Source of the DNA: Chloroflexota bacterium
Lineage (GTDB): Bacteria > Chloroflexota > Dehalococcoidia > Dehalococcoidales > UBA2162
Direction: 5' to 3'
Assembly: GCA_016190825.1 (NCBI GenBank)
Contig: JACPPV010000023.1
Location: 1-64,000, forward strand
DNA length: 64,000 nt
In this document: piece by piece, positions 23,831 through 34,414 of the stretch
How the letters are laid out: each line of letters begins with the position of its first letter
Numbering within the stretch: the stretch's first letter is position 1
The notes under the pieces: generated by a model
Database searches by the model: none
What the model saw: only the letters and a program-made list of their open reading frames with translations
Told to the model about the DNA's origin: nothing
Translations under genes and position numbers: made by a program

Positions 23831-25147
23831 TTAATCTGGCAATGTTAACAGGATTTCAGGCGTTGCCAACGTGACCTTAATGTTGTCTGCCGTCTCAATC
23901 TCGAACTTACGTTTTCTAGCACTATCATCAAAACCAGTCTGGGATATGGCAATGATTTCTTTGATGGGCTTTGGCACGGCTGGATGCAGTTTGGCATTCG
24001 TCACAAACTCACTTAGAACTGGATATTTAATCAGATACACCTTGGCTTGCAACGGAATACCTTGCGGAGTAATGCCGTCTACACCTTTATCCGGCCTTGG
24101 TTTGGTCGCTTTATAAAACTCGTTTGCCCATGCCTCAAAAGTGTTACCATCCATTTCTTGAATCTCACTTAGGTCACGTGTCACGTAATTAGCCACGCCG
24201 AACAAGGCATAGCTCCGATTCTGTATGACCTGAAATGCTGTAGGAAGTTTACCTTGTTCTCTGGGAGAAGTATCAATGTCTACCCCTATCCATTGTCGAT
24301 TGAGTTTACTGGCTACTATAACAGTCGTACCACAGCCACAAAATGGGTCTAAGACCACATCGCCCTCTTTGCTAGATGCTTTGATAATACGCTCTAGTAA
24401 AGCCCCTGGTTTCTGAGTCGGGTAGCCTGTTCGCTCTTTGGCCGTAGCATTTATTATTGGTATCGTCCAAACGTCTGTAGCGAATACACCTTTTTTGAGA
24501 TACACTTTCGCGCGGTATTTACTTCCGTCAGGTGCCCGTCTGGTAGTCATCCTGTAAGTCCCTTGCTCATCTGAGGAGTCGTATCTAGTAGCACGTTCTC
24601 TCAGGGTTGCGGCGGCATATTCTACAGTGATTGGCTTGAAATAACTAGCGTCAGTTTTTCCATAGAACAGAATCGAATCATGCTTTCGTTGAAAATGCCC
24701 TTTATGCTGAGTCGCCTTTGCTCCGTAATCCCATATAATCTCATTTCTAAATTGGTCGTACCCAAATACTTCATCTAGCACCATTTTCAAGTAGTGGGAC
24801 GCACGCCAATCACAATGCAAATAGATACTGCCTGTTGGCTTAAGAACGTGATAACAAGCATAGAGCCTTTCCATCATGTAGTAGAGATATGATGCGAAGT
24901 CTGGTTGTTTTAAGGCAAGGTGACGAAGCCATTCCGGTGCTTTCTCTCTCATAGTATCGGCCTTTTCTGCCCAAAATCTTTTTGAATCTTCATAGGATAC
25001 TTCCATAGCCCCAGGTTGCCACTTAGCTGTCCCTTTTTGCACGTTGCCCGTAAAGAATGGTGGGTCAAGGTAGATAAGGTCTATGGAGTTTGGTTGTATA
25101 TCATGTTTCAAAACAAATAGACAATCACCATGATAAAAAGTTCCCAT
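23831..25147 (-). CDS. Beta-type DNA methyltransferase with candidate C-terminal PD-(D/E)XK nuclease domain
   Basis: N-terminal DLIYLDPPFFTG, then VVLDPFCGCGTT; C-terminal extension FEAWANEFYKATKPRPDKGVDGITPQGIPLQAKVYLIK resembles a D...QxK nuclease core. Confidence 0.75.
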   Translation of the reverse strand: MGTFYHGDCLFVLKHDIQPNSIDLIYLDPPFFTGNVQKGTAKWQPGAMEVSYEDSKRFWAEKADTMREKAPEWLRHLALKQPDFASYLYYMMERLYACYHVLKPTGSIYLHCDWRASHYLKMVLDEVFGYDQFRNEIIWDYGAKATQHKGHFQRKHDSILFYGKTDASYFKPITVEYAAATLRERATRYDSSDEQGTYRMTTRRAPDGSKYRAKVYLKKGVFATDVWTIPIINATAKERTGYPTQKPGALLERIIKASSKEGDVVLDPFCGCGTTVIVASKLNRQWIGVDIDTSPREQGKLPTAFQVIQNRSYALFGVANYVTRDLSEIQEMDGNTFEAWANEFYKATKPRPDKGVDGITPQGIPLQAKVYLIKYPVLSEFVTNAKLHPAVPKPIKEIIAISQTGFDDSARKRKFEIETADNIKVTLATPEILLTLPD

Positions 25148-25360: not shown

Positions 25361-25390
25361 TTGACCGCCTTAGAACATCTGTGCTATTTT
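25361..25390 (+). promoter_or_regulatory. Predicted promoter upstream of the capsid cassette
   Basis: TTGACC-18 nt-TATTTT immediately before the ORF at 25402. Confidence 0.4.
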
Positions 25391-25401
25391 GAGGGTGCGT
25401 T

Positions 25402-25752
25402 TTGAGCTTGGAGGTTGATTTTATGGAGATGGAGCGGAGTGATGAGTTTGCTTTCCAGGAAATCCCAGTTGATGCAGAGAAAATCGAGCTTGACCCGTTG
25501 CCGGAGTTCTGTGATTACCGGGATGAGGGCTGCGAGATGGCCGGCTCGTGCCTTAACTGCCCTTTTTCCCGCTGCATCTACGATGAACCGAGAGGCAAAC
25601 AGCGGTGGCTAATGAAAATCCGCGCCGGGGAGATGGCGAAGCTGTTTGCCGGAGGGAAACAGCTTAAGGAGCTGGCAAGGATGTTCGGTGTCAGCCAGCG
25701 CACGGTGAAGAGAGCACTGAAACAAAATAGACAAGTAACAAGTAACAAGTAG
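25402..25752 (+). CDS. Cys-cluster plus helix-turn-helix protein at the head of the capsid cassette
   Basis: CDYRDEGCEMAGSCLNCPFSRCIYDEP then MAKLFAGGKQLKELARMFGVSQRTVKRALKQ (HTH). Confidence 0.6.
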   Translation: MSLEVDFMEMERSDEFAFQEIPVDAEKIELDPLPEFCDYRDEGCEMAGSCLNCPFSRCIYDEPRGKQRWLMKIRAGEMAKLFAGGKQLKELARMFGVSQRTVKRALKQNRQVTSNK

Positions 25753-25886
25753 CAAGGGACAAGGGACAATAACCAAAGAACAGAGTAGGGCGGGAGTAGA
25801 TTCCCGCTTACGCGGGAATGACAATGGAAAAGCGGGAATGACAGTATAAGAGCGGGAAGAAAGAAAACGTATGAGAGGGCAAGGGA

Positions 25887-27293
25887 ATGAGTGATTTTAG
25901 TCTGGCTGAGCTGGACCGGCGGGATTCAGAGAGGATGAGGAATTATAAGGCGCTGCTCGATTTCTACCAGGGCATTCACTGGGACGGACGGGAGAGGCGG
26001 GGAGACAAGCGCCTCACCTTTAATTACTCAAAAGTCTTCGTTGAGAAGGTGGCCTCCTACCTGATGTCCGGCGTCAGTTTTGCCGTTGACCCTGTTGAGG
26101 ATTCAGATAGGGGGCGGGCCAAAGCGCAAGCAGCCGAGACAGCGTTGCACCGGATATACGAAACAAATAACCTGGAACAGCTTGATTTTGAGACTGAGAT
26201 TGATTGTGCCATCCTGGGTGATGCCTGCTACAAGGTCATCTGGGACCACGAGCGAGGAGACGTGCGTATTACCGCCCCGGATATCCAGGGTATTTATGCC
26301 TGGCGGGCGGGCGATGATATTTCCCGGGTCTGGCGGGTGGCATCAAGGTACAGGCTCTCCGCTGAGGAAGCTGAGACACTGTATACGGTGAAGCCTAAGG
26401 GTGATATGGGCAGCGTTGTCGAGGTCTGGACCGACCAACACTTTGAACTGTGGCTTGACGATTTGCTGGTTGAAAAAAAGCCCAATCCCTATGGTTTTAT
26501 CCCTTTTATCATCTATCCCAATCTCAGGGAGCCAAAACAATTCTGGGGCGTCTCTGACCTGGTTCCCATATTGGAGCCGCAGCGCGAGCTCAACCGTGCT
26601 GTATCGCAACTGGCGAAGATACTGGAGCTTTCCGGAAACCCGATAGCCGTGCTGGAAAATGTTGAGGAATCTGAAGACATCGCCGTGCGTCCCGGGGCGG
26701 TGTGGAACATACCTGAAGACGCTAAAGCTTATCTGCTTGACCTTCTCCAGGGAGGTGGTGTCCGGCTGCACATCGATTATATCAATCTGCTTTTTCGTGT
26801 CCTGCATGACCTTTCGGAAACGCCGCGCGCCTCATTCGGCCGCACCGAGCGCGACCTTTCCGGCATCGCCCTTGAGATTGAGCTACAGCCGCTCATGCAG
26901 AAGGTGAAAAGGAAAAGGCTGGTCCGCGCCGCCGTTTACAATGAACGGAACCGGCTGGCGATGAAGCTGTTGGAGAAATTCCACGGTGACAGCTTCGGCA
27001 ACAACCGTCTGCGGGTGGTCTGGGGGCCGGTATTGCCCAGGGATCTCGCCCAGCTCGTAGCCAATGAGCAGACGCTGGTGCAGAGCGGCATCCATTCCCG
27101 AAGGCGGGCAATGGACGAGATGGGCATAAAAGACCCGGCGGCGGAGTTCAGGTTGTGGCTTGAAGAGAGGGAGGCCATCCTCAGAATGAACAGGGAGCTG
27201 AATCTCAGGGCTTCGAAAGGCGGAACGAGAGGGAGAGATATCGAGTCCCAGGTCGAGGCAGCAAGAAATAATTTGACGGAGGACGAAGGGTGA
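25887..27293 (+). CDS. Phage portal protein (SPP1 gp6-like)
   Basis: YQGIHWDGRERRGDKRLTFNYSKVFVEKVASYLMSG; PNPYGFIPFIIYPNLREPKQFWGVSDLVPILEPQRELNRAVSQLAKI. Confidence 0.85.
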   Translation: MSDFSLAELDRRDSERMRNYKALLDFYQGIHWDGRERRGDKRLTFNYSKVFVEKVASYLMSGVSFAVDPVEDSDRGRAKAQAAETALHRIYETNNLEQLDFETEIDCAILGDACYKVIWDHERGDVRITAPDIQGIYAWRAGDDISRVWRVASRYRLSAEEAETLYTVKPKGDMGSVVEVWTDQHFELWLDDLLVEKKPNPYGFIPFIIYPNLREPKQFWGVSDLVPILEPQRELNRAVSQLAKILELSGNPIAVLENVEESEDIAVRPGAVWNIPEDAKAYLLDLLQGGGVRLHIDYINLLFRVLHDLSETPRASFGRTERDLSGIALEIELQPLMQKVKRKRLVRAAVYNERNRLAMKLLEKFHGDSFGNNRLRVVWGPVLPRDLAQLVANEQTLVQSGIHSRRRAMDEMGIKDPAAEFRLWLEEREAILRMNRELNLRASKGGTRGRDIESQVEAARNNLTEDEG

Positions 27294-27790
27294 CCAATGG
27301 ATTAGACGAAAAAGACAACTTGCCGAAAACACATTCCAATGAACCGACTCAGCCCGAAGAAAGGAGGATCACTGACCTGGAAAGCCAGTTAGCGCGAAAG
27401 AGCGAGGAACTGACCGGTGCTACAGCCCGTATCGCCGAGCTTGAAGGATCCCTATCCAGCCGGGAGACAGAAATTGCCAGCCTCAAGCAAGAGCGGGCCG
27501 GACTGGAATTGGCATTGGCCGGGGCAGTAGCCAACTACAGGGCTCTGGTGCTTCAGGCTAACCCCGGAATCGTTGAGGAACTGGTCAGTGGGGACACGGT
27601 CGAAGCGATTGATGCCTCTCTGGCAAAGGCAAAAGCTTTGTTGGGCAAGGTAAAGCAAGGGTTGGCGGCTGAACTTTCTATGCTCAGGGTGCCCGTTGGC
27701 GCACCGGAAAGAACGCTGCCTGATGTTTCGGGGTTGTCCCCGCGGGAAAAAATTCAACACGCAATGGTTCGAGAAACTCATCATAAATAG
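27290..27790 (+). CDS. Coiled-coil protein, possible scaffold
   Basis: Between portal and capsid genes; Glu/Lys/Ala-rich coiled coil (TDLESQLARKSEELTGATARIAELEGSLSSRETEIASLKQERAGLE). Confidence 0.55.
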   Translation: MTNGLDEKDNLPKTHSNEPTQPEERRITDLESQLARKSEELTGATARIAELEGSLSSRETEIASLKQERAGLELALAGAVANYRALVLQANPGIVEELVSGDTVEAIDASLAKAKALLGKVKQGLAAELSMLRVPVGAPERTLPDVSGLSPREKIQHAMVRETHHK

Positions 27791-27804
27791 GAGGTAAAAG
27801 ATAA

Positions 27805-28725
27805 ATGGCTTTAGTTCTGGAAGAAGCTGCCAAGCTATCAAATGACATGCTGCTGCAAGGGGTGGTGGAGACCATCATCAAGGAATCGCCGGTGCTTCAG
27901 CGCCTGCCTTTTGTTGAAATTGTCGGCAACGGATTGACTTACAACCAGGAGAAGACGCTGCCCGGCATTGATTTCTACGATGTGGGCGATACGTGGGCGG
28001 AATCAACTCCCACCTTCGAGCAGAAAACGACCAACCTGAAGATAATGGGCGGCGATGCCGATGTTGACAACTTTCTCAAAGTGACGCGCTCCAACCTTCA
28101 GGACCTGGAGGCGGCGATGGTTGAGCTCAAGGCGAAGGCACTCAAGGACAAATTCGAGGAGAACTTTATTTACGGCAATTCGGCAACGAATCCCAAACAG
28201 TTCGATGGGCTGAGGAAGCTGATCGATACCGCTTCGGCAGGCGACCAGGTAATCGCCGCCGGAGCAAGTGGAGCTACGTTGACACTTGCCATGCTCGACC
28301 AGCTTATTGACACCATAAAAGGGGGCAAGCCGGATTTGCTTTTGATGAGCCGGCGCACCCGGCGGAAACTGAACGCCCTTGTTAGAGCCGCCAACGGGAT
28401 GATGGAGACCGACCGTGATAAGTGGGGGAACTTCATCCAGTTCTGGGATGGCGTGCCGATAGCCGTCAATGATTGGATACTGGATACCCACACGGTAAGC
28501 GGCGGCGTGGAGGCGGCCATAACCGGCGGCACCAGCTCCACCATGTATGCCTTCCAGATGGGTGAGGGGGCTCTCTGCGGGCTGACCGCGCCGGGCCATC
28601 TGACGGTTGAGCGTATCGGCTCGCTGGAGACGAAGGACGCCTCCCGCACCCGGATCAAGTGGTACGTTTCGCTGGCGCTTTTCACCTCCGTGAAGGCGGC
28701 GGCGCTCATCGGGGTACAGGACTAG
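27805..28725 (+). CDS. Major capsid protein, probable HK97-like fold
   Basis: AAKLSNDMLLQGVVETIIKESPVLQRLPFVEIVGNGLTYNQEKTLPG ... FIYGNSATNPKQFDGLRKLI ... DLLLMSRRTRRKLNALVRA ... DGVPIAVNDWIL: typical major-capsid pattern downstream of portal. Confidence 0.8.
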   Translation: MALVLEEAAKLSNDMLLQGVVETIIKESPVLQRLPFVEIVGNGLTYNQEKTLPGIDFYDVGDTWAESTPTFEQKTTNLKIMGGDADVDNFLKVTRSNLQDLEAAMVELKAKALKDKFEENFIYGNSATNPKQFDGLRKLIDTASAGDQVIAAGASGATLTLAMLDQLIDTIKGGKPDLLLMSRRTRRKLNALVRAANGMMETDRDKWGNFIQFWDGVPIAVNDWILDTHTVSGGVEAAITGGTSSTMYAFQMGEGALCGLTAPGHLTVERIGSLETKDASRTRIKWYVSLALFTSVKAAALIGVQD

Positions 28726-28784
28726 AAACAAATCCGAAGCACGAAAAATAAAATTCGAAACGACTAAGGAAAAGGAGGAAATAA

Positions 28785-29195
28785 ATGCCATTTTCAGACC
28801 CGGGAACGGGGAGAATCATTTACGACTCCGGGCGGGGGACGGAGCCGGAGAAGGTGATTTTGGGGGAAGACTGTAACTGCGGTGATATTCTGGGCTACAG
28901 CTCAGGCTGGAAGCGAGCGCTGGCCACAGCAGGTTCGGTGGTCCAAGGACGGCTGGTGGCGCTGGCGGACGGCAAAAGCGGCGGGGAAGTGCCTGCCTCA
29001 GCAAACGCCGTGGTCGGTGGCTATTCCGGAGCCACAGCGGGGGACTACGTCTACGTGGACGAGGGGACGAACAATGGACGGATTACCCAGACTGCACCGT
29101 CCACTTCCGGCGATGCCAATACCATCATCGGGGTGGCTCTTTCAGCAACCAAGGTTTTATTTTTCCTGAACAGCCGGGCGGACAGCACTGCATAG
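28785..29195 (+). CDS. Small capsid decoration/cement-like protein
   Basis: Ala/Gly-rich small protein (EDCNCGDILGYSSGWKRALATAGSVVQGRLVALADGKSGGEVPASANAVVGGYSGATAGDYVYVDEG) directly after the capsid gene. Confidence 0.5.
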   Translation: MPFSDPGTGRIIYDSGRGTEPEKVILGEDCNCGDILGYSSGWKRALATAGSVVQGRLVALADGKSGGEVPASANAVVGGYSGATAGDYVYVDEGTNNGRITQTAPSTSGDANTIIGVALSATKVLFFLNSRADSTA

Positions 29196-29244
29196 CGACA
29201 TAAACGAGGGGCGGGGATGCCTCCGCCCCTCCTAGATTCCCGCT

Positions 29245-29268
29245 CCCGTATCAAGTACGGGACAGGCT
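29245..29268. repeat. 24-bp nested palindromic module
   Basis: cccgtatcaagtacgggacaggct inserted in a 'gattcccgct|tcgcgggagcgac' repeat. Confidence 0.75.
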
Positions 29269-29311
29269 TCGCGGGAGCGACAACGCAATACGAAAAAAAG
29301 GAGGCTAACTT

Positions 29312-29776
29312 ATGCCACTCGGAGTGATTGAATATATTGAGCACCCGCTGGGGAGGGGTAATCTTACCTCAGATGGCGTGCAGTGGAGCGCGGAAAAAAC
29401 CACCTCGGCCGATAGCTACGAGACAGTGGAGGAAGTCACGGTAAAACCGCCAGCGCTCGGCGGGGTAATCGAGTTTGAGTTCGGATTGACCTGTGCCGTG
29501 AAGTCGAGCGGTACGCTGGAATCGGTCCTCTTCAAATGGCAGGCAAGGAACAAAGGTGGCACATGGGTGGACCTCCACGGCGAGGTAACCTACCCGGCAA
29601 ACGCTTCAAGCTACAAAGAGTATACCTACAGCGGACGTTTCAAGCCGGAGGCCAATTTCAACGGCGTGCCTTTTGATCTGCGACTGCTCATCAAATCCGG
29701 CAGCGCTGGCGGCGAGAATGCCATAGGCAAGACCAAGGGCTCAAGCTACGTCAGGGTGATATATTCGGCTTCGTGA
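29312..29776 (+). CDS. Structural-type hypothetical protein of capsid cassette
   Basis: Beta-rich 154-aa protein, same operon-like orientation, preceded by a GGAGG SD. Confidence 0.5.
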   Translation: MPLGVIEYIEHPLGRGNLTSDGVQWSAEKTTSADSYETVEEVTVKPPALGGVIEFEFGLTCAVKSSGTLESVLFKWQARNKGGTWVDLHGEVTYPANASSYKEYTYSGRFKPEANFNGVPFDLRLLIKSGSAGGENAIGKTKGSSYVRVIYSAS

Positions 29777-29784
29777 GGTGAAAA

Positions 29785-30423
29785 ATGGACTTCATTAACG
29801 ACCCCAGCCTGGCGCTATATCTGCCCTTGCATCGGCTTGATGGCGCGTCCTTTATCTCGAAAGACGGCTACGGTCATCTTGCCGCCGTCACCGGCGTACG
29901 CTGGACTCCCCAGGGCAGAAGCTTTGACGGAGTAGATGACTGGATTTCAGTTCCAAATCATGCGGCTATTGACGTTTCTGCGGGGGAACACCTGACCCTG
30001 GAACTATGGTTCAGACCTGGCAACTTGACAGGCAGCCACAGACTGGCTGTAAAACGAGCAGGAGGAGCAAAAGGGTACATGTTGCTAACTAGCGGGGCAG
30101 GAGTCCAGTTTGCCACAGATAAAGCGGATGATGGAACAGGAGACGTAACATCTAACTCAACCAGCGTCCTGGTAGTTGACACCTTTTACCACGTTGTGGC
30201 GACATACGATGGAGCAACTCAATACCTGTACATAAATGCGCAACTTGAAGATAGTGACGCTCAATCAGGTGATTTTTCTAATAGCGAGGACTTAAATATC
30301 GGTCGCCATGCAGTTGTCGGGCAATACTTTGCCGGCATAATCGGCGAGTTCAGAATTTACAGTCGGGCACTGTCGGCCCCAGAGGTCCAGCATAACTACG
30401 TGGCGACGAAATGGAGGTATTAG
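29785..30423 (+). CDS. LamG / concanavalin-like jelly-roll protein
   Basis: FDGVDDWISVPNHAAIDVSAGEHLTLELWFRPGN ... HVVATYDGATQYLYINAQL ... NIGRHAVVGQYFAGIIGEFRIYSRALSAPEVQHNY. Confidence 0.85.
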   Translation: MDFINDPSLALYLPLHRLDGASFISKDGYGHLAAVTGVRWTPQGRSFDGVDDWISVPNHAAIDVSAGEHLTLELWFRPGNLTGSHRLAVKRAGGAKGYMLLTSGAGVQFATDKADDGTGDVTSNSTSVLVVDTFYHVVATYDGATQYLYINAQLEDSDAQSGDFSNSEDLNIGRHAVVGQYFAGIIGEFRIYSRALSAPEVQHNYVATKWRY

Positions 30424-30499
30424 TAGTGCATGAAGCAAAGAGCATGGAGCGCCTGGCCTCTTATGTCTGTTCTGAGATGAGTCGAAGGGAGGTAATCGA

Positions 30500-30712
30500 A
30501 TGAAATACCGGGTACGGCTTGACCTGTTTTTCGAAAGTGAAATTGACGCCCGCTCTCTGGTCGCTTACGCGGAGAGTTTGACCGGCAAGGCAGTCAGCCT
30601 CAACGAGGGCAACCCGGATGAAGAAATCGCCTTCTGGGACCTGGAGATTTGCCGCCATGATGAGGGCCTGCCGTGCACGAAGCTGGAGCGCATGGAGATA
30701 AGGAGTAAATAA
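30500..30712 (+). CDS. Small hypothetical protein in capsid cassette
   Basis: MKYRVRLDLFFESEIDARSLVAYAESLTGKAVSLNEG..., SD-like GGAGG upstream. Confidence 0.45.
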   Translation: MKYRVRLDLFFESEIDARSLVAYAESLTGKAVSLNEGNPDEEIAFWDLEICRHDEGLPCTKLERMEIRSK

Positions 30713-30749
30713 TAAAAGTGATGCAGCCTGTCAAAAGGGGGTGTGATAA

Positions 30750-31382
30750 ATGAATCTGGCTGATATGAGGGCAATAGTCAGGCGCGACCTTCACGATGAG
30801 GACTCCGCCAGCTACCGATGGACCAATGACGAGCTTGATTGGCACATCGCGCACGCCGTCAAAGACTTCTCTGAAGCGGTGCCTTACGAGCAGAAGGCAA
30901 CAAAGGCGACAACCGCTGGCTCCCGGGTGCTCGACCTGTCCACGATAACCGGCAGGATAGCAGTGGAGGCTGTTGAATATCCGGTAGACAAATTCCCCAG
31001 GATATATCAGCCCTTCGCGTTGTGGGGAGATAGCCTGACGCTACTCGGCGATGAAACACCGGATGGCGCTAATGCGTATATTTACTACGGCAAACTCCAC
31101 ACACTGGATGCCACCTCATCTACTATACCAGCCCGATTAGAGGACGTCGTTGCCACCGGAGCCTGTGGTTTTGCGGCAGTGGAATGGGCTGCCTATGCTA
31201 TCAACCGGGTCAATGTGGGCGGCAGCGTGACATCAAAGGAATTCCTCGACTGGGGCAACGTGAAGCTGACAGTTTTCCAGGACGAGTTGAAGAGGCTGGG
31301 CAGCAAAAACAGGGTAAGAGTCCGCCGACTATACCGGCCCTACTACTCTCCTGTGTCAAAATCAACGGATTTCGGGCCTTAA
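30750..31382 (+). CDS. Head-tail connector/adaptor-like protein
   Basis: MNLADMRAIVRRDLHDEDSASYRWTNDELDWHIAHAVKDFS resembles phage adaptor N-termini; position after capsid genes. Confidence 0.55.
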   Translation: MNLADMRAIVRRDLHDEDSASYRWTNDELDWHIAHAVKDFSEAVPYEQKATKATTAGSRVLDLSTITGRIAVEAVEYPVDKFPRIYQPFALWGDSLTLLGDETPDGANAYIYYGKLHTLDATSSTIPARLEDVVATGACGFAAVEWAAYAINRVNVGGSVTSKEFLDWGNVKLTVFQDELKRLGSKNRVRVRRLYRPYYSPVSKSTDFGP

Positions 31383-31398
31383 GAGCGGGTGTTCTGAT

Positions 31399-31590
31399 AT
31401 GAAATTGAATGAGTGGATAGACTTTGCCCGTGCAATGGTCAGGCCATTTATCACGGTCTGGGGCTTCATCATCTATAGCATTTGCGTGATTAAAGGAATC
31501 GAGGTGCCGCCGGTCCTATCCGGGCTGGTGACGGCGACCATCGCCGGCTACTTCGGCGAGCGGGCGATCCTTCGACTCAAGAGGAAGTGA
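31399..31590 (+). CDS. Small membrane protein, holin-like
   Basis: Two hydrophobic segments with basic tail: FITVWGFIIYSICVIKG, VLSGLVTATIAGYFGERAILRLKRK. Confidence 0.45.
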   Translation: MKLNEWIDFARAMVRPFITVWGFIIYSICVIKGIEVPPVLSGLVTATIAGYFGERAILRLKRK

Positions 31591-31594
31591 TGCC

Positions 31595-33595
31595 ATGCGG
31601 AGTTTGAGTGCTACGTTGCTGGCTGCCCAGAAGAAGGCAAGCCGGACTCCTTATGCCAAGGTGGAAGCAAAGAACCAGATCGCTGGGGTAGTCAGGCTGG
31701 ACTGGACAAGGCTTTACTCCGGCAGCGAGGCCGACTACTACCATGCCCTGACGATGCCGGGGGACGGGGCGCTTATCCGCGCCATGATAACTCCCCCCGC
31801 AGATGGGAAGAAGCTCTACCGGCAGCGGGTGGCTGACCCCAGCCCATCCAGCGATTTCAGCCAGTGGACCTACACCAGCCAGTATGACGCCGTGGCCGTG
31901 GCCGCCGCATCCTATGAAAGCGAAGTCTCCGTTTTCTGGATCAACTCAAGCCGGGAAATCCAGCGGATCAAGAGCACTGACTACGGGGTTAACTGGGGAA
32001 GCCCGGAACTTATTGATTACACTCCCACTACCGCAGTCTACGGGATTGCCGCCGCTTACAAAACCAATGGTGACCTTGCTATCTTCTTTGCCGACCAGGC
32101 ATTCCTTTACGTGAAAAAACACGCCGGCGGAAGCTGGCAGGCAAAGAGCACCTGGGACAAGTCTACCGGAGACCTGTCCGGCGTGGCAGTAATGTACAGC
32201 GGGGACTGGAACCTTTTAGTCACGGGCAAAGACACGGCCGGGGACTTCAAGCTGTGGAGCCTGGTTTACGGCGATGGCGGTGATGTCACCGCGAATACCT
32301 GGTCTTCCCTCAAAGAGGTCGTCTCGGCCCCCTCTGACGGGGAGTTCACGTATTCTGGAGTTTTCTTAGCCCGGCCGGACGTTGACCGTTGCTCTTTTGT
32401 TGAGGAATTCACTGGCACACAGGCTTACAACCGGCCATTCTGGTCCCATTCGGCGCCTGGCGCGGGGTTCATTGACAGCCTGTGGCGCGAGCCGGTCCCG
32501 TTTGACCTGTCCAGCCAGTATGGGCTGGCGATTGCTTACTACGACGATTACTGCTGGCTTTCCTGTCCCGGTGGAGTCTGGCGCGCCTCTCTCAACGCCC
32601 AGGCTCTTGACCTAACGGCTGATATCGTCTCGGTAAAGCAGGAGGCAAAGGAAGCCGGAGGCGGGATGATTGTCGAGCTTAGAAATAATGACGGGCGATA
32701 CTCTTCTCCGGGGCAGGGCAGCTTGAGTCTTCTTGATATCGGCTGCCAGCTTGAATTCAGTCCAGGTTGTGTCACGACTGCTGGAGACGAGGTCAGCCCG
32801 GGACACAGCTACACCCTGGAAGCGTACGAGCATACCAGGTCCGATGGAAGGGCAAGCTTTATCCTTCACGCCGCTGACGGCTGGCGGGCAGTAGCCATCT
32901 GGAAGGCGCGTCACCAGTTCCGCTGGAACAAAAGCAGCAACGAAATGAGCGTCAAGGAAATTATTGCCTTTGTCCTGGCGAGAGTTGGCCTGAAGCTCGA
33001 AGTGAAATCCGAGTCGGCGGTAGCGACCGGCTTTTATCCTGATTTCACCATCAGCACCGATAATAGCGGCGACGTAATTATTCAGCGGCTTCTCTCCTTT
33101 GTGCCGGACGTAATTTTCATCGAGGGAAATAAAGCCTATCTTGTCAATCCGCAATCGACCGATAGCTCCATATACAGCTACGGAGGCGAGCACTCCGTCA
33201 TGGAAGGAAGGTACCGCCGGGGCGCATGGGAAATCAACAGGGTGCTGGTGATGGGTGAGGATGGGAGCGGCCAGCTAATCATGGCTGATAGTTTTGCCTG
33301 GAGCGAGATTGATAAACTTTACGACCGGTTAGCGCAGATTTCCGACCGCAACATAGATACGGTCGCCAGAGCCCAGGAACGCGGGCAGGCTTATCTCAGG
33401 CAGAGTGAAATCGATTCGTCCGGCGGCACGGTACTTGTTCCGGTGAACTGCGGCCAGCAGCTCTACGATGTTATTGATATTACGGACAATACAGCCGGGC
33501 TGGTCTCAGCCAAACGAAGGGTGCTGGGGATAGCCCTGGTCTACGAATCCCGCCGCGGGGAATACAGCCAGCGGTTGAAACTGGGAGCGGTTTAA
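31595..33595 (+). CDS. Large structural protein: repetitive propeller-like N-terminal half plus baseplate/tail-hub-like C-terminal half
   Basis: N-terminal repeats (ISSREIQRIKSTDYGVNWGSPELI; AAAYKTNGDLAIFFADQAFLYVKKHAGGSW; VAVMYSGDWNLLVTG) look like beta-propeller blades; C-terminal KRRVLGIALVYESRRGEYSQRLKLG resembles hub/late-control-type proteins. Confidence 0.5.
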   Translation: MRSLSATLLAAQKKASRTPYAKVEAKNQIAGVVRLDWTRLYSGSEADYYHALTMPGDGALIRAMITPPADGKKLYRQRVADPSPSSDFSQWTYTSQYDAVAVAAASYESEVSVFWINSSREIQRIKSTDYGVNWGSPELIDYTPTTAVYGIAAAYKTNGDLAIFFADQAFLYVKKHAGGSWQAKSTWDKSTGDLSGVAVMYSGDWNLLVTGKDTAGDFKLWSLVYGDGGDVTANTWSSLKEVVSAPSDGEFTYSGVFLARPDVDRCSFVEEFTGTQAYNRPFWSHSAPGAGFIDSLWREPVPFDLSSQYGLAIAYYDDYCWLSCPGGVWRASLNAQALDLTADIVSVKQEAKEAGGGMIVELRNNDGRYSSPGQGSLSLLDIGCQLEFSPGCVTTAGDEVSPGHSYTLEAYEHTRSDGRASFILHAADGWRAVAIWKARHQFRWNKSSNEMSVKEIIAFVLARVGLKLEVKSESAVATGFYPDFTISTDNSGDVIIQRLLSFVPDVIFIEGNKAYLVNPQSTDSSIYSYGGEHSVMEGRYRRGAWEINRVLVMGEDGSGQLIMADSFAWSEIDKLYDRLAQISDRNIDTVARAQERGQAYLRQSEIDSSGGTVLVPVNCGQQLYDVIDITDNTAGLVSAKRRVLGIALVYESRRGEYSQRLKLGAV

Positions 33596-33631
33596 GGCAT
33601 AGCCATGATTGTTTGTCGGAGGTGAAATTTA

Positions 33632-33844
33632 GTGAGCACGCGGAAAGCGATCCTGAAGAGTTTTAGTTCGGGCAGCTATACGGCAACCGTGCAGCTTGCC
33701 AGTAGTCTTAAGGTCTACCTGGAAGATGTCACGGTTGCCCGGAACATACCATCGGCAGAAATGGTCGCAGGGCGGAAGGTGGCGCTCATCTTCTTCGATG
33801 AGCACAATCCGAAAGAGGCAATCGTGGTGGGAGTTTATGTTTGA
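33632..33844 (+). CDS. Small beta-barrel-like protein at the end of the capsid cassette
   Basis: 70-aa beta-rich ORF with GTG start after GGAGGTG: VSTRKAILKSFSSGSYTATVQLASSLKVYLEDVTVARNIPSAEMVAGRKVALIFFDEHNPKEAIVVGVYV. Confidence 0.5.
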   Translation: MSTRKAILKSFSSGSYTATVQLASSLKVYLEDVTVARNIPSAEMVAGRKVALIFFDEHNPKEAIVVGVYV

Positions 33845-33852
33845 GACGCGTT

Positions 33853-34251
33853 TTATTGTCCGGGGCTTTTTTCCACGGTCTTGGAGAGGGTTTTCAGCAC
33901 GGCGAGGATGCTCAAAAGGGCGCGCTGGACCTCCACCGGCTCCTGCGCCAAAACGCGGGCGACATAAGGGTCCAAACGGCCGCCGGAGTATGCGGCTCCC
34001 TGTTCGGCAATCCCTGGCGATTGCGGAGTTAGATAGCCAGCCAGGGTGAAAAGCTCATCTTCCTCGAAGTCCAACGGGCCTGCAATCCGGCGCAAGATTC
34101 GCGCCGAAGGAAACCTCTCTCCGCGCTCGATACGGCCGAGATGGGAGGCGGAGACTTTTGCCTTGGCTGCCAGCTCCTGCAATGTCAGCGCCAGCGAAAT
34201 CCTTTGCTTCTTAATGATTTCGCCAAGAGTATTCCCGGCATTTGTGCCCAT
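33853..34251 (-). CDS. XRE-family transcriptional regulator
   Basis: NTLGEIIKKQRISLALTLQELAAKAKVSASHLGRIERGERFPSARILRRIAGPLDFEEDELF; start placed at 34251 (MGTNAGNTLGE). Confidence 0.9.
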   Translation of the reverse strand: MGTNAGNTLGEIIKKQRISLALTLQELAAKAKVSASHLGRIERGERFPSARILRRIAGPLDFEEDELFTLAGYLTPQSPGIAEQGAAYSGGRLDPYVARVLAQEPVEVQRALLSILAVLKTLSKTVEKSPGQ

Positions 34252-34260
34252 ACAATAATA

Positions 34261-34289
34261 ATTATAATTCGCCAATTGGCGAATGTCAA
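34261..34289 (-). promoter_or_regulatory. Consensus promoter with embedded palindromic operator for the XRE gene
   Basis: Minus strand TTGACA-17 nt-TATAAT; 18-bp perfect palindrome ATTCGCCAATTGGCGAAT at 34267-34284 spans the spacer. Confidence 0.85.
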
Positions 34290-34414
34290 CAGCCAAATGT
34301 TTACTCCCGTCACTTCCAACGCTTTTCGGGAAAATCATTTCTTTGTCCAGGCAGAGAAGCACGGGGACTTCAGGCGTATATCGGAGATTATTCGATCAAT
34401 CTTTTTTCCGGCTT

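Follow-up and report, generated by a model that had tools for sequence, protein, structure and literature searches.

RcGTA and the other alphaproteobacterial gene transfer agents (GTAs) have phage head and packaging genes that are inherited with the host, lack replication genes and occupy multiple loci; RcGTA itself is of the siphovirus type, having both a tail tube and a tape measure, and has one large cluster that includes TerL. The GTA of Faecalibacterium, FpGTA, has a compact head operon of about 10 kb encoding TerS, TerL, portal, scaffold, major capsid protein (MCP) and short-tail-type proteins, and a second, unlinked operon about 125 kb away, and it was present in every genome of one genus that was examined (PMC12946183). 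Its particles, of about 40 nm and containing 8.4–8.9 kb of host DNA, were shown experimentally (PMC12946183). Here we describe a block of phage-type head genes (25402-33844, all ORFs on the + strand) of the Chloroflexota bacterium GCA_016190825.1, located within positions 1-64,000 of contig JACPPV010000023.1, the 64,000-nucleotide stretch that was analysed and that is called the window hereafter. FpGTA is its closest precedent, and the likeness is one of design: a compact head operon, an unlinked second locus and parts of the short-tail type (PMC12946183). The Chloroflexota system differs from it in belonging to another phylum, in its TerL, which is often unlinked, in its several loci, in a hub that bears a propeller, and in a class-wide spread with homologues in other classes. 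In addition, FpGTA was shown to make DNA-filled particles, whereas those of the system described here are predicted from its genes; the two are likened by their design. As in described GTAs, phage-derived genes are vertically inherited, no replication, integration or excision genes stand alongside them, TerL has intact motifs, the genes are spread over several loci and purifying selection acts on them. We consider that the system is probably (about 0.68) a GTA-like particle for the packaging of DNA, made of a phage head and a minimal tail that were domesticated and are inherited vertically. An earlier reading of the window, the original prediction, had left this option open together with a satellite and an extracellular delivery particle, and it is strongly favoured by the conserved gene order across the class, the mostly single copies, purifying selection and a partial tracking of rpoB. 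No paper naming a GTA of Chloroflexota or Dehalococcoidia was found in the open-access literature, a scope outside which most subscription papers and preprints fall.

The original prediction described a capsid cassette lacking recognisable terminase, integrase, tape measure and protease. Profile scans of the block agreed with this, as they gave no convincing match to a terminase large subunit, an integrase or a tape measure and none to a protease, but for the genome the lack of a terminase did not hold. The search for a terminase elsewhere, suggested in the same prediction, revealed a TerS-TerL pair on a separate contig (C27:12872-14257), at least about 38 kb away from the block, as calculated from how far each of the two lies from the ends of its contig in this draft genome. 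The query was the TerL of relatives, a protein of about 460 aa with a Terminase_6C signal that is encoded directly 5′ of the helix-turn-helix (HTH) gene of the block where the cluster is unsplit, and it gave one full-length match (C27:12884-14248, E 1e-154). The encoded protein is 56% identical to the TerL of locus L034, which adjoins the block there. It contains the ATPase motifs (Walker A ARQGGKN and Walker B-like LLLEIDE) and the coupling motif LYGTSW as well as three nuclease motifs with Asp (GID, DATG and HDD). The TerL proteins of relatives match PHROG large terminases, and the profile of the family matches solved TerL nucleases. A gene of 120 aa located just 5′ of TerL encodes TerS (phrog_1889, 3.3e-8), and the next gene 3′ encodes homoserine dehydrogenase. 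Neither PF03354 nor PF03237 gave a terminase match in this genome, because its TerL is too divergent and could be found only through the clusters of relatives; a negative Pfam search alone would have misled on the presence of a terminase.

The distribution of these genes was studied in 198 Dehalococcoidia genomes that sample the class evenly. Of these, 94 had MCP, 120 had TerL, 107 had portal and 104 had hub, mostly with one copy per genome. After removing obviously distant matches, MCP, TerL and portal were all present in 82 genomes and all absent in 75, and the pairwise association of the three genes gave Fisher p values from 1e-22 to 1e-34. About 79 of the 94 MCP matches were near full length and nearly all had no internal stop. 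At phylum level, other classes included, MCP was found in 47 of 399 genomes, and other Chloroflexota classes carry homologues of portal, TerL, scaffold, TerS and adaptor in rearranged clusters. Gene order was compared in 80 contigs of a species-level collection, nearly all of them metagenome-assembled genomes of Chloroflexi/Chloroflexota, Dehalococcoidia or Dehalococcoidales. The block genes were on one strand in all 80 loci and their order was nearly constant, the fullest loci reading TerS-TerL-HTH-portal-scaffold-MCP-adaptor-hub-spike in one compact cluster, unsplit in L095. A genome of the same order also harbors two copies of a distant capsid with 34% identity (G112:C3:10917-11879 and G112:C22:27660-28622), probably of an ordinary prophage type.

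The genes are dispersed in the chromosomes of several relatives. In five complete chromosomes of genomes that we take to be Dehalogenimonas-like (G189, G082, G067, G145 and G123), TerL and capsid are separated by 8 kb to about 600 kb; in G145, for instance, TerL is at 464 kb and MCP at 1,071 kb. Three single chromosomes of 2.7–2.8 Mb (G152, G060 and G185) have hub plus spike, portal, and MCP/TerL at separate places over about 200 kb. Even MCP and TerL are separated there by host genes, and the genes are single-copy and mostly intact (hub at 476 kb, portal at 561 kb, MCP at 674 kb and TerL at 678 kb in G152). In G373, the genes are divided between two replicons, one with the hub and a TerL homologue and the other with capsid, portal and scaffold. 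The lone MCPs of L036, L038 and L045 were considered as possible artefacts, and this was rejected because portal and hub are found elsewhere in the same chromosomes. If motor, portal and capsid did not function together, it would be hard to explain why they are kept at unlinked loci across such divergent genomes.

Distances in the gene trees were compared with those of rpoB, leaving aside the genome of the window, whose draft lacks rpoB. The rho values were 0.81 for portal, 0.53 for hub, 0.51 for MCP, 0.44 for adaptor and 0.42 for TerL, all five above the maximum of 500 permutations. These phage-derived genes are therefore in part vertically inherited with the host genome, deep congruence being partial. 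The dN/dS ratios were mostly 0.01–0.5 and for the greater part under 0.35 (0.01–0.17 for MCP and 0.04–0.59 for the other particle genes), indicating that the particle genes are under purifying selection.

A viral ancestry of the system is evident since free phages carry capsids at about 40% identity. Related proteins occur in ordinary tailed phages, Paenibacillus phages Unity and Tripp for MCP and Bacillus phage vB_BboS-125 for TerL: MCP is 40–41% identical over 99% of its length to the Unity/Tripp-type capsids, and TerL aligns over 96% with the vB_BboS-125 terminase at 32% identity. All these are complete phage records of 50–58 kb, in contrast to the dispersed chromosomal genes found here. 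In IMG/VR, the capsid has relatives on at least 573 contigs, and the best 80 all measure 4–12.7 kb, a size that fits pieces of a cellular cluster and not phage genomes. The hundreds of IMG/VR contigs with this capsid are thus probably such fragments, misfiled as viruses.

Regarding the individual genes of the block, the predicted one-strand cassette was found where it had been placed, and a Shine-Dalgarno-like sequence precedes nearly every ORF. The best supported identities were those of portal (468 aa, 25887..27293, +; PF05133 SPP1_portal 8e-27, phrog_64 1.8e-38), the HK97-type MCP (306 aa, 27805..28725, +; phrog_212 5.9e-70, with PF20911, PF17236 and PF05065 over the cut-off) and a protein of 212 aa with a LamG/ConA-like lectin fold (29785..30423, +; PF13385 5.1e-28), likely a surface or adhesion protein. 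The first gene (116 aa, 25402..25752, +) encodes the Cys-cluster and HTH protein. Its Cys motif (CxxxxxxxCLxCPxxxC) was confirmed in nearly all members, and homologues exist in 23 of 30 genomes compared; HTH_23 and HTH_28 stayed just under the Pfam cut-offs, and phrog_836, a late transcriptional activator family, matched at 1.2e-5. This protein is likely a DNA-binding regulator or a packaging accessory. Profile support was also weak for the coiled-coil, head scaffold-like protein (166 aa, 27290..27790, +; phrog_233 head scaffolding 0.009), whose gene keeps a constant place between portal and capsid among relatives, and for the head-tail adaptor-like protein (210 aa, 30750..31382, +; PF24175 SU10_adaptor 2.4e-5, just under the Pfam cut-off), with homologues in 21 of the 30 genomes. 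Four variable ORFs, the LamG-fold one among them, lie between MCP and adaptor. The others are a lineage-variable, decoration-like protein (136 aa, 28785..29195, +), for which L037 was the only one of the relatives compared to have a homologue, and two proteins of 154 aa (29312..29776, +; in the variable region, as is the LamG-fold protein) and 70 aa (30500..30712, +), both giving no family match in the profile scans. A small membrane-type protein (63 aa, 31399..31590, +; phrog_6637, a family of unknown function, 2e-5) is encoded between adaptor and hub, and Dehalogenimonas-like genomes have another small hydrophobic ORF at its place.

The two last genes of the block encode the predicted closure of the particle. 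For the protein of 666 aa (31595..33595, +), the propeller-like plus hub-like reading was well supported: the AlphaFold model had a pLDDT of 92, and Foldseek matched one part to the hubs of T4, Mu (gp44), P1, pyocins, VgrG and the Photorhabdus virulence cassette (PVC) and other extracellular contractile injection systems (E down to 1.9e-18) and the other part to the PLL3 lectin (5.4e-9), a known beta-propeller. The small beta protein of 70 aa (33632..33844, +) was modelled, again with a pLDDT of 92, as an OB-like barrel. Its Foldseek matches, all of them weak, were the OB domains of the Mu baseplate, P2 gpV and the R2 pyocin spike together with unrelated OB proteins, and we consider it a spike-type protein resembling the gp5/gpV OB domain. 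The fold of the C-terminal part of the hub and the OB-like spike are common to T4 gp27/gp5, Mu gp44/gp45, VgrG and PVC-type contractile injection systems. However, the propeller is here embedded in the hub, and profile scans of the block revealed no gene for a sheath, a tube or a baseplate wedge, so that with an extracellular contractile injection system the block has in common the hub and spike folds alone. Encapsulins also have an HK97-fold shell encoded in cellular genomes, but here portal, scaffold, terminase and hub are present, the shell profile is that of a phage MCP and the family scans gave no encapsulin assignment. A PDB sequence search with MCP gave no match. Tail tube and tape measure parts as in RcGTA were not found, the tube being searched for in the block and PF10145 being the one tail model used genome-wide; this tape measure family was absent from the genome of the window and from 13 of 17 relatives, and its matches in the other four, at other loci, are presumably unrelated. 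The particle is therefore predicted, from these models, to be a capsid closed by the adaptor, the propeller-bearing hub and the OB-fold spike, with no tail tube encoded in the block.

The block is surrounded by host genes. Guanylate kinase, phosphate transport, glyceraldehyde-3-phosphate dehydrogenase, enolase and DNA methyltransferase genes are found on one side, and glycogen phosphorylase, Rieske protein and response regulator genes on the other; profile scans of block and flanks revealed no replication, integration or excision genes beside the structural ones. The G+C content of the block is 0.550, and both this value and that of third codon positions are like those of the flanks. No tRNA adjoins the block, the nearest being at 17.7–17.9 kb and 61.2 kb. 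Direct repeats around the block were considered as att sites and rejected because the same repeats occur elsewhere in the window. A dispersed repeat, GCGGGAATGACA, is found at window positions 1976, 17527, 17609, 25812, 25832, 41557, 42763 and 49267, with 10 sites at one mismatch or less versus 0.6 expected. A palindromic one, CCCGTATCAAGTACGGGGCA, is found at 29245, 34477, 34684 and 52533, one of these copies being in the capsid block, with a variable gene on either side. The antisense XRE-type HTH regulator next to the block (33853..34362, −; HTH_3 3.3e-10) is real, although it is not conserved with it, since no homologue was found at the relatives' loci examined, and it is a candidate local regulator. 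The N6/N4 DNA methyltransferase (23831-25147, −) was rejected as a part of the block because just two of the relatives' examined loci, G167 and G196, have homologues. Finally, each of the six Dehalogenimonas-like loci that were examined has a gene for a DUF6941 protein following that of the spike (for example L028:13712-14197 and L027:16315-16725), and this protein is possibly part of the system in this genus.

Some relatives have lost part of the genes. In G012 and G097, of 1.47–1.52 Mb and presumably Dehalococcoides-like, a single internal deletion has taken scaffold, capsid and adaptor together with part of the portal and the front of the hub. What these genomes keep is TerS, TerL, HTH, the truncated portal, the C-terminal part of the hub and the spike, and G048 shows further loss including the end of TerL. 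The nested cluster deletions of L080, L081 and L082, in small Dehalococcoides-like genomes, form a natural loss series. With these deletions, the particle should be beyond what such cells can produce.

With these data, a GTA-like particle was weighed against other explanations. Since G012 and G097 have no capsid and yet retain hub, spike, HTH, TerS and TerL, the hub and spike resemble parts of contractile injection systems and pyocins, the LamG fold and the beta-propeller suggest surface binding and the decoration genes vary, the domesticated particle could have another job (antibacterial, adhesive or protein delivery), with DNA packaging secondary or lost. We regard this as unlikely because a DNA-free particle would have no need of a TerL like this one, with preserved ATPase and nuclease motifs and a presence linked to that of capsid and portal, and because no sheath, tube or tape measure was found in the block. 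Broken TerL genes in G134 and G178, added to the clear decay in Dehalococcoides-like genomes, would agree with an ancient prophage remnant that decays slowly without a current function; nevertheless, the mostly full-length and uninterrupted MCPs of the class, dN/dS well under 1 and the joint retention of several unlinked genes make such a remnant very improbable.

A lineage of temperate phages or satellites that still infects Chloroflexota repeatedly, the linkage of some genes having been lost here, would explain why all parts are phage homologues, why MCP and TerL have relatives in free phages and why deep trees are partly incongruent. An ordinary prophage would have an integrase and att sites, a contiguous genome with replication and lysis genes and a strain-specific presence, and a satellite resembling phage-inducible chromosomal islands would have an integrase, an excision and replication module and a mobile location. 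None of this agrees with our results: the block has no integrase or replication gene, att-like flanks or nearby tRNA, its G+C content is host-like, the best 80 IMG/VR contigs do not exceed 12.7 kb, and in four Dehalogenimonas-like genomes the capsid block adjoins the same class II tRNA synthetase gene. The satellite option of the original prediction is disfavoured by this conserved place and by the gene content of the block, and a phage or satellite lineage of this kind has, in our view, little chance of being the explanation. The observations which, according to that prediction, would speak for a prophage (terminase or integrase in the block, confinement to one strain, att-like flanks) were looked for and were absent.

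Returning to the GTA-like particle, we infer its formation, its cellular DNA cargo, its exit from the cell and the delivery of DNA. The cell would assemble a small capsid around the portal with the help of an internal scaffold, and the unlinked TerS-TerL motor, encoded on contig C27 here, would load DNA. The cargo would be cellular DNA, because no self-replicating viral genome exists. The adaptor and the short device of hub plus OB spike would then close the portal, and the beta-propeller of the hub and the LamG-fold protein may bind surface sugars of recipient cells. We also propose, tentatively and at slightly less than even odds, that this is an ancient GTA present through much of Chloroflexota since before the divergence of its classes, with an undescribed design in which the capsid is closed directly by a gp27-type hub with a sugar-binding propeller and an OB spike, without a tail tube, and whose genes are kept by selection over several loci or even two replicons.

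Several observations weigh against a GTA-like particle. The TerL frame (L047:9873-11258, contig C27) has no ATG, GTG or TTG start at the conserved N-terminus; we infer that translation begins at an ATT (L047:9873) a few bases 3′ of a GGAGG, which could possibly limit TerL expression. No lysis genes were identified, no genome-wide scan having been aimed at them. The trees of MCP, TerL and rpoB differ in their deep branches, with 9–11 of 24 splits in common, so that some horizontal exchange or a weak signal remains, and the highest dN/dS values reached 0.59 for TerL in one pair and 0.52 for the hub in another. In addition, the system is dispensable, since about one third of the class genomes sampled have none of MCP, portal and TerL and the capsid is deleted in Dehalococcoides-like genomes.

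If the GTA-like particle is real, Dehalococcoidia, a widespread class to which the organohalide-respiring Dehalogenimonas belongs, would have a DNA-transfer particle of its own, and horizontal gene movement in the class could have a route that was overlooked. The transfer route of the vinyl-chloride-respiration islands in Dehalococcoides was left open, packaging in phage capsids having been considered (PMC3146451); the Dehalococcoides-like genomes examined here have lost the capsid. A system domesticated very early, with its genes dispersed, would also make it possible to test how selection keeps such particles.

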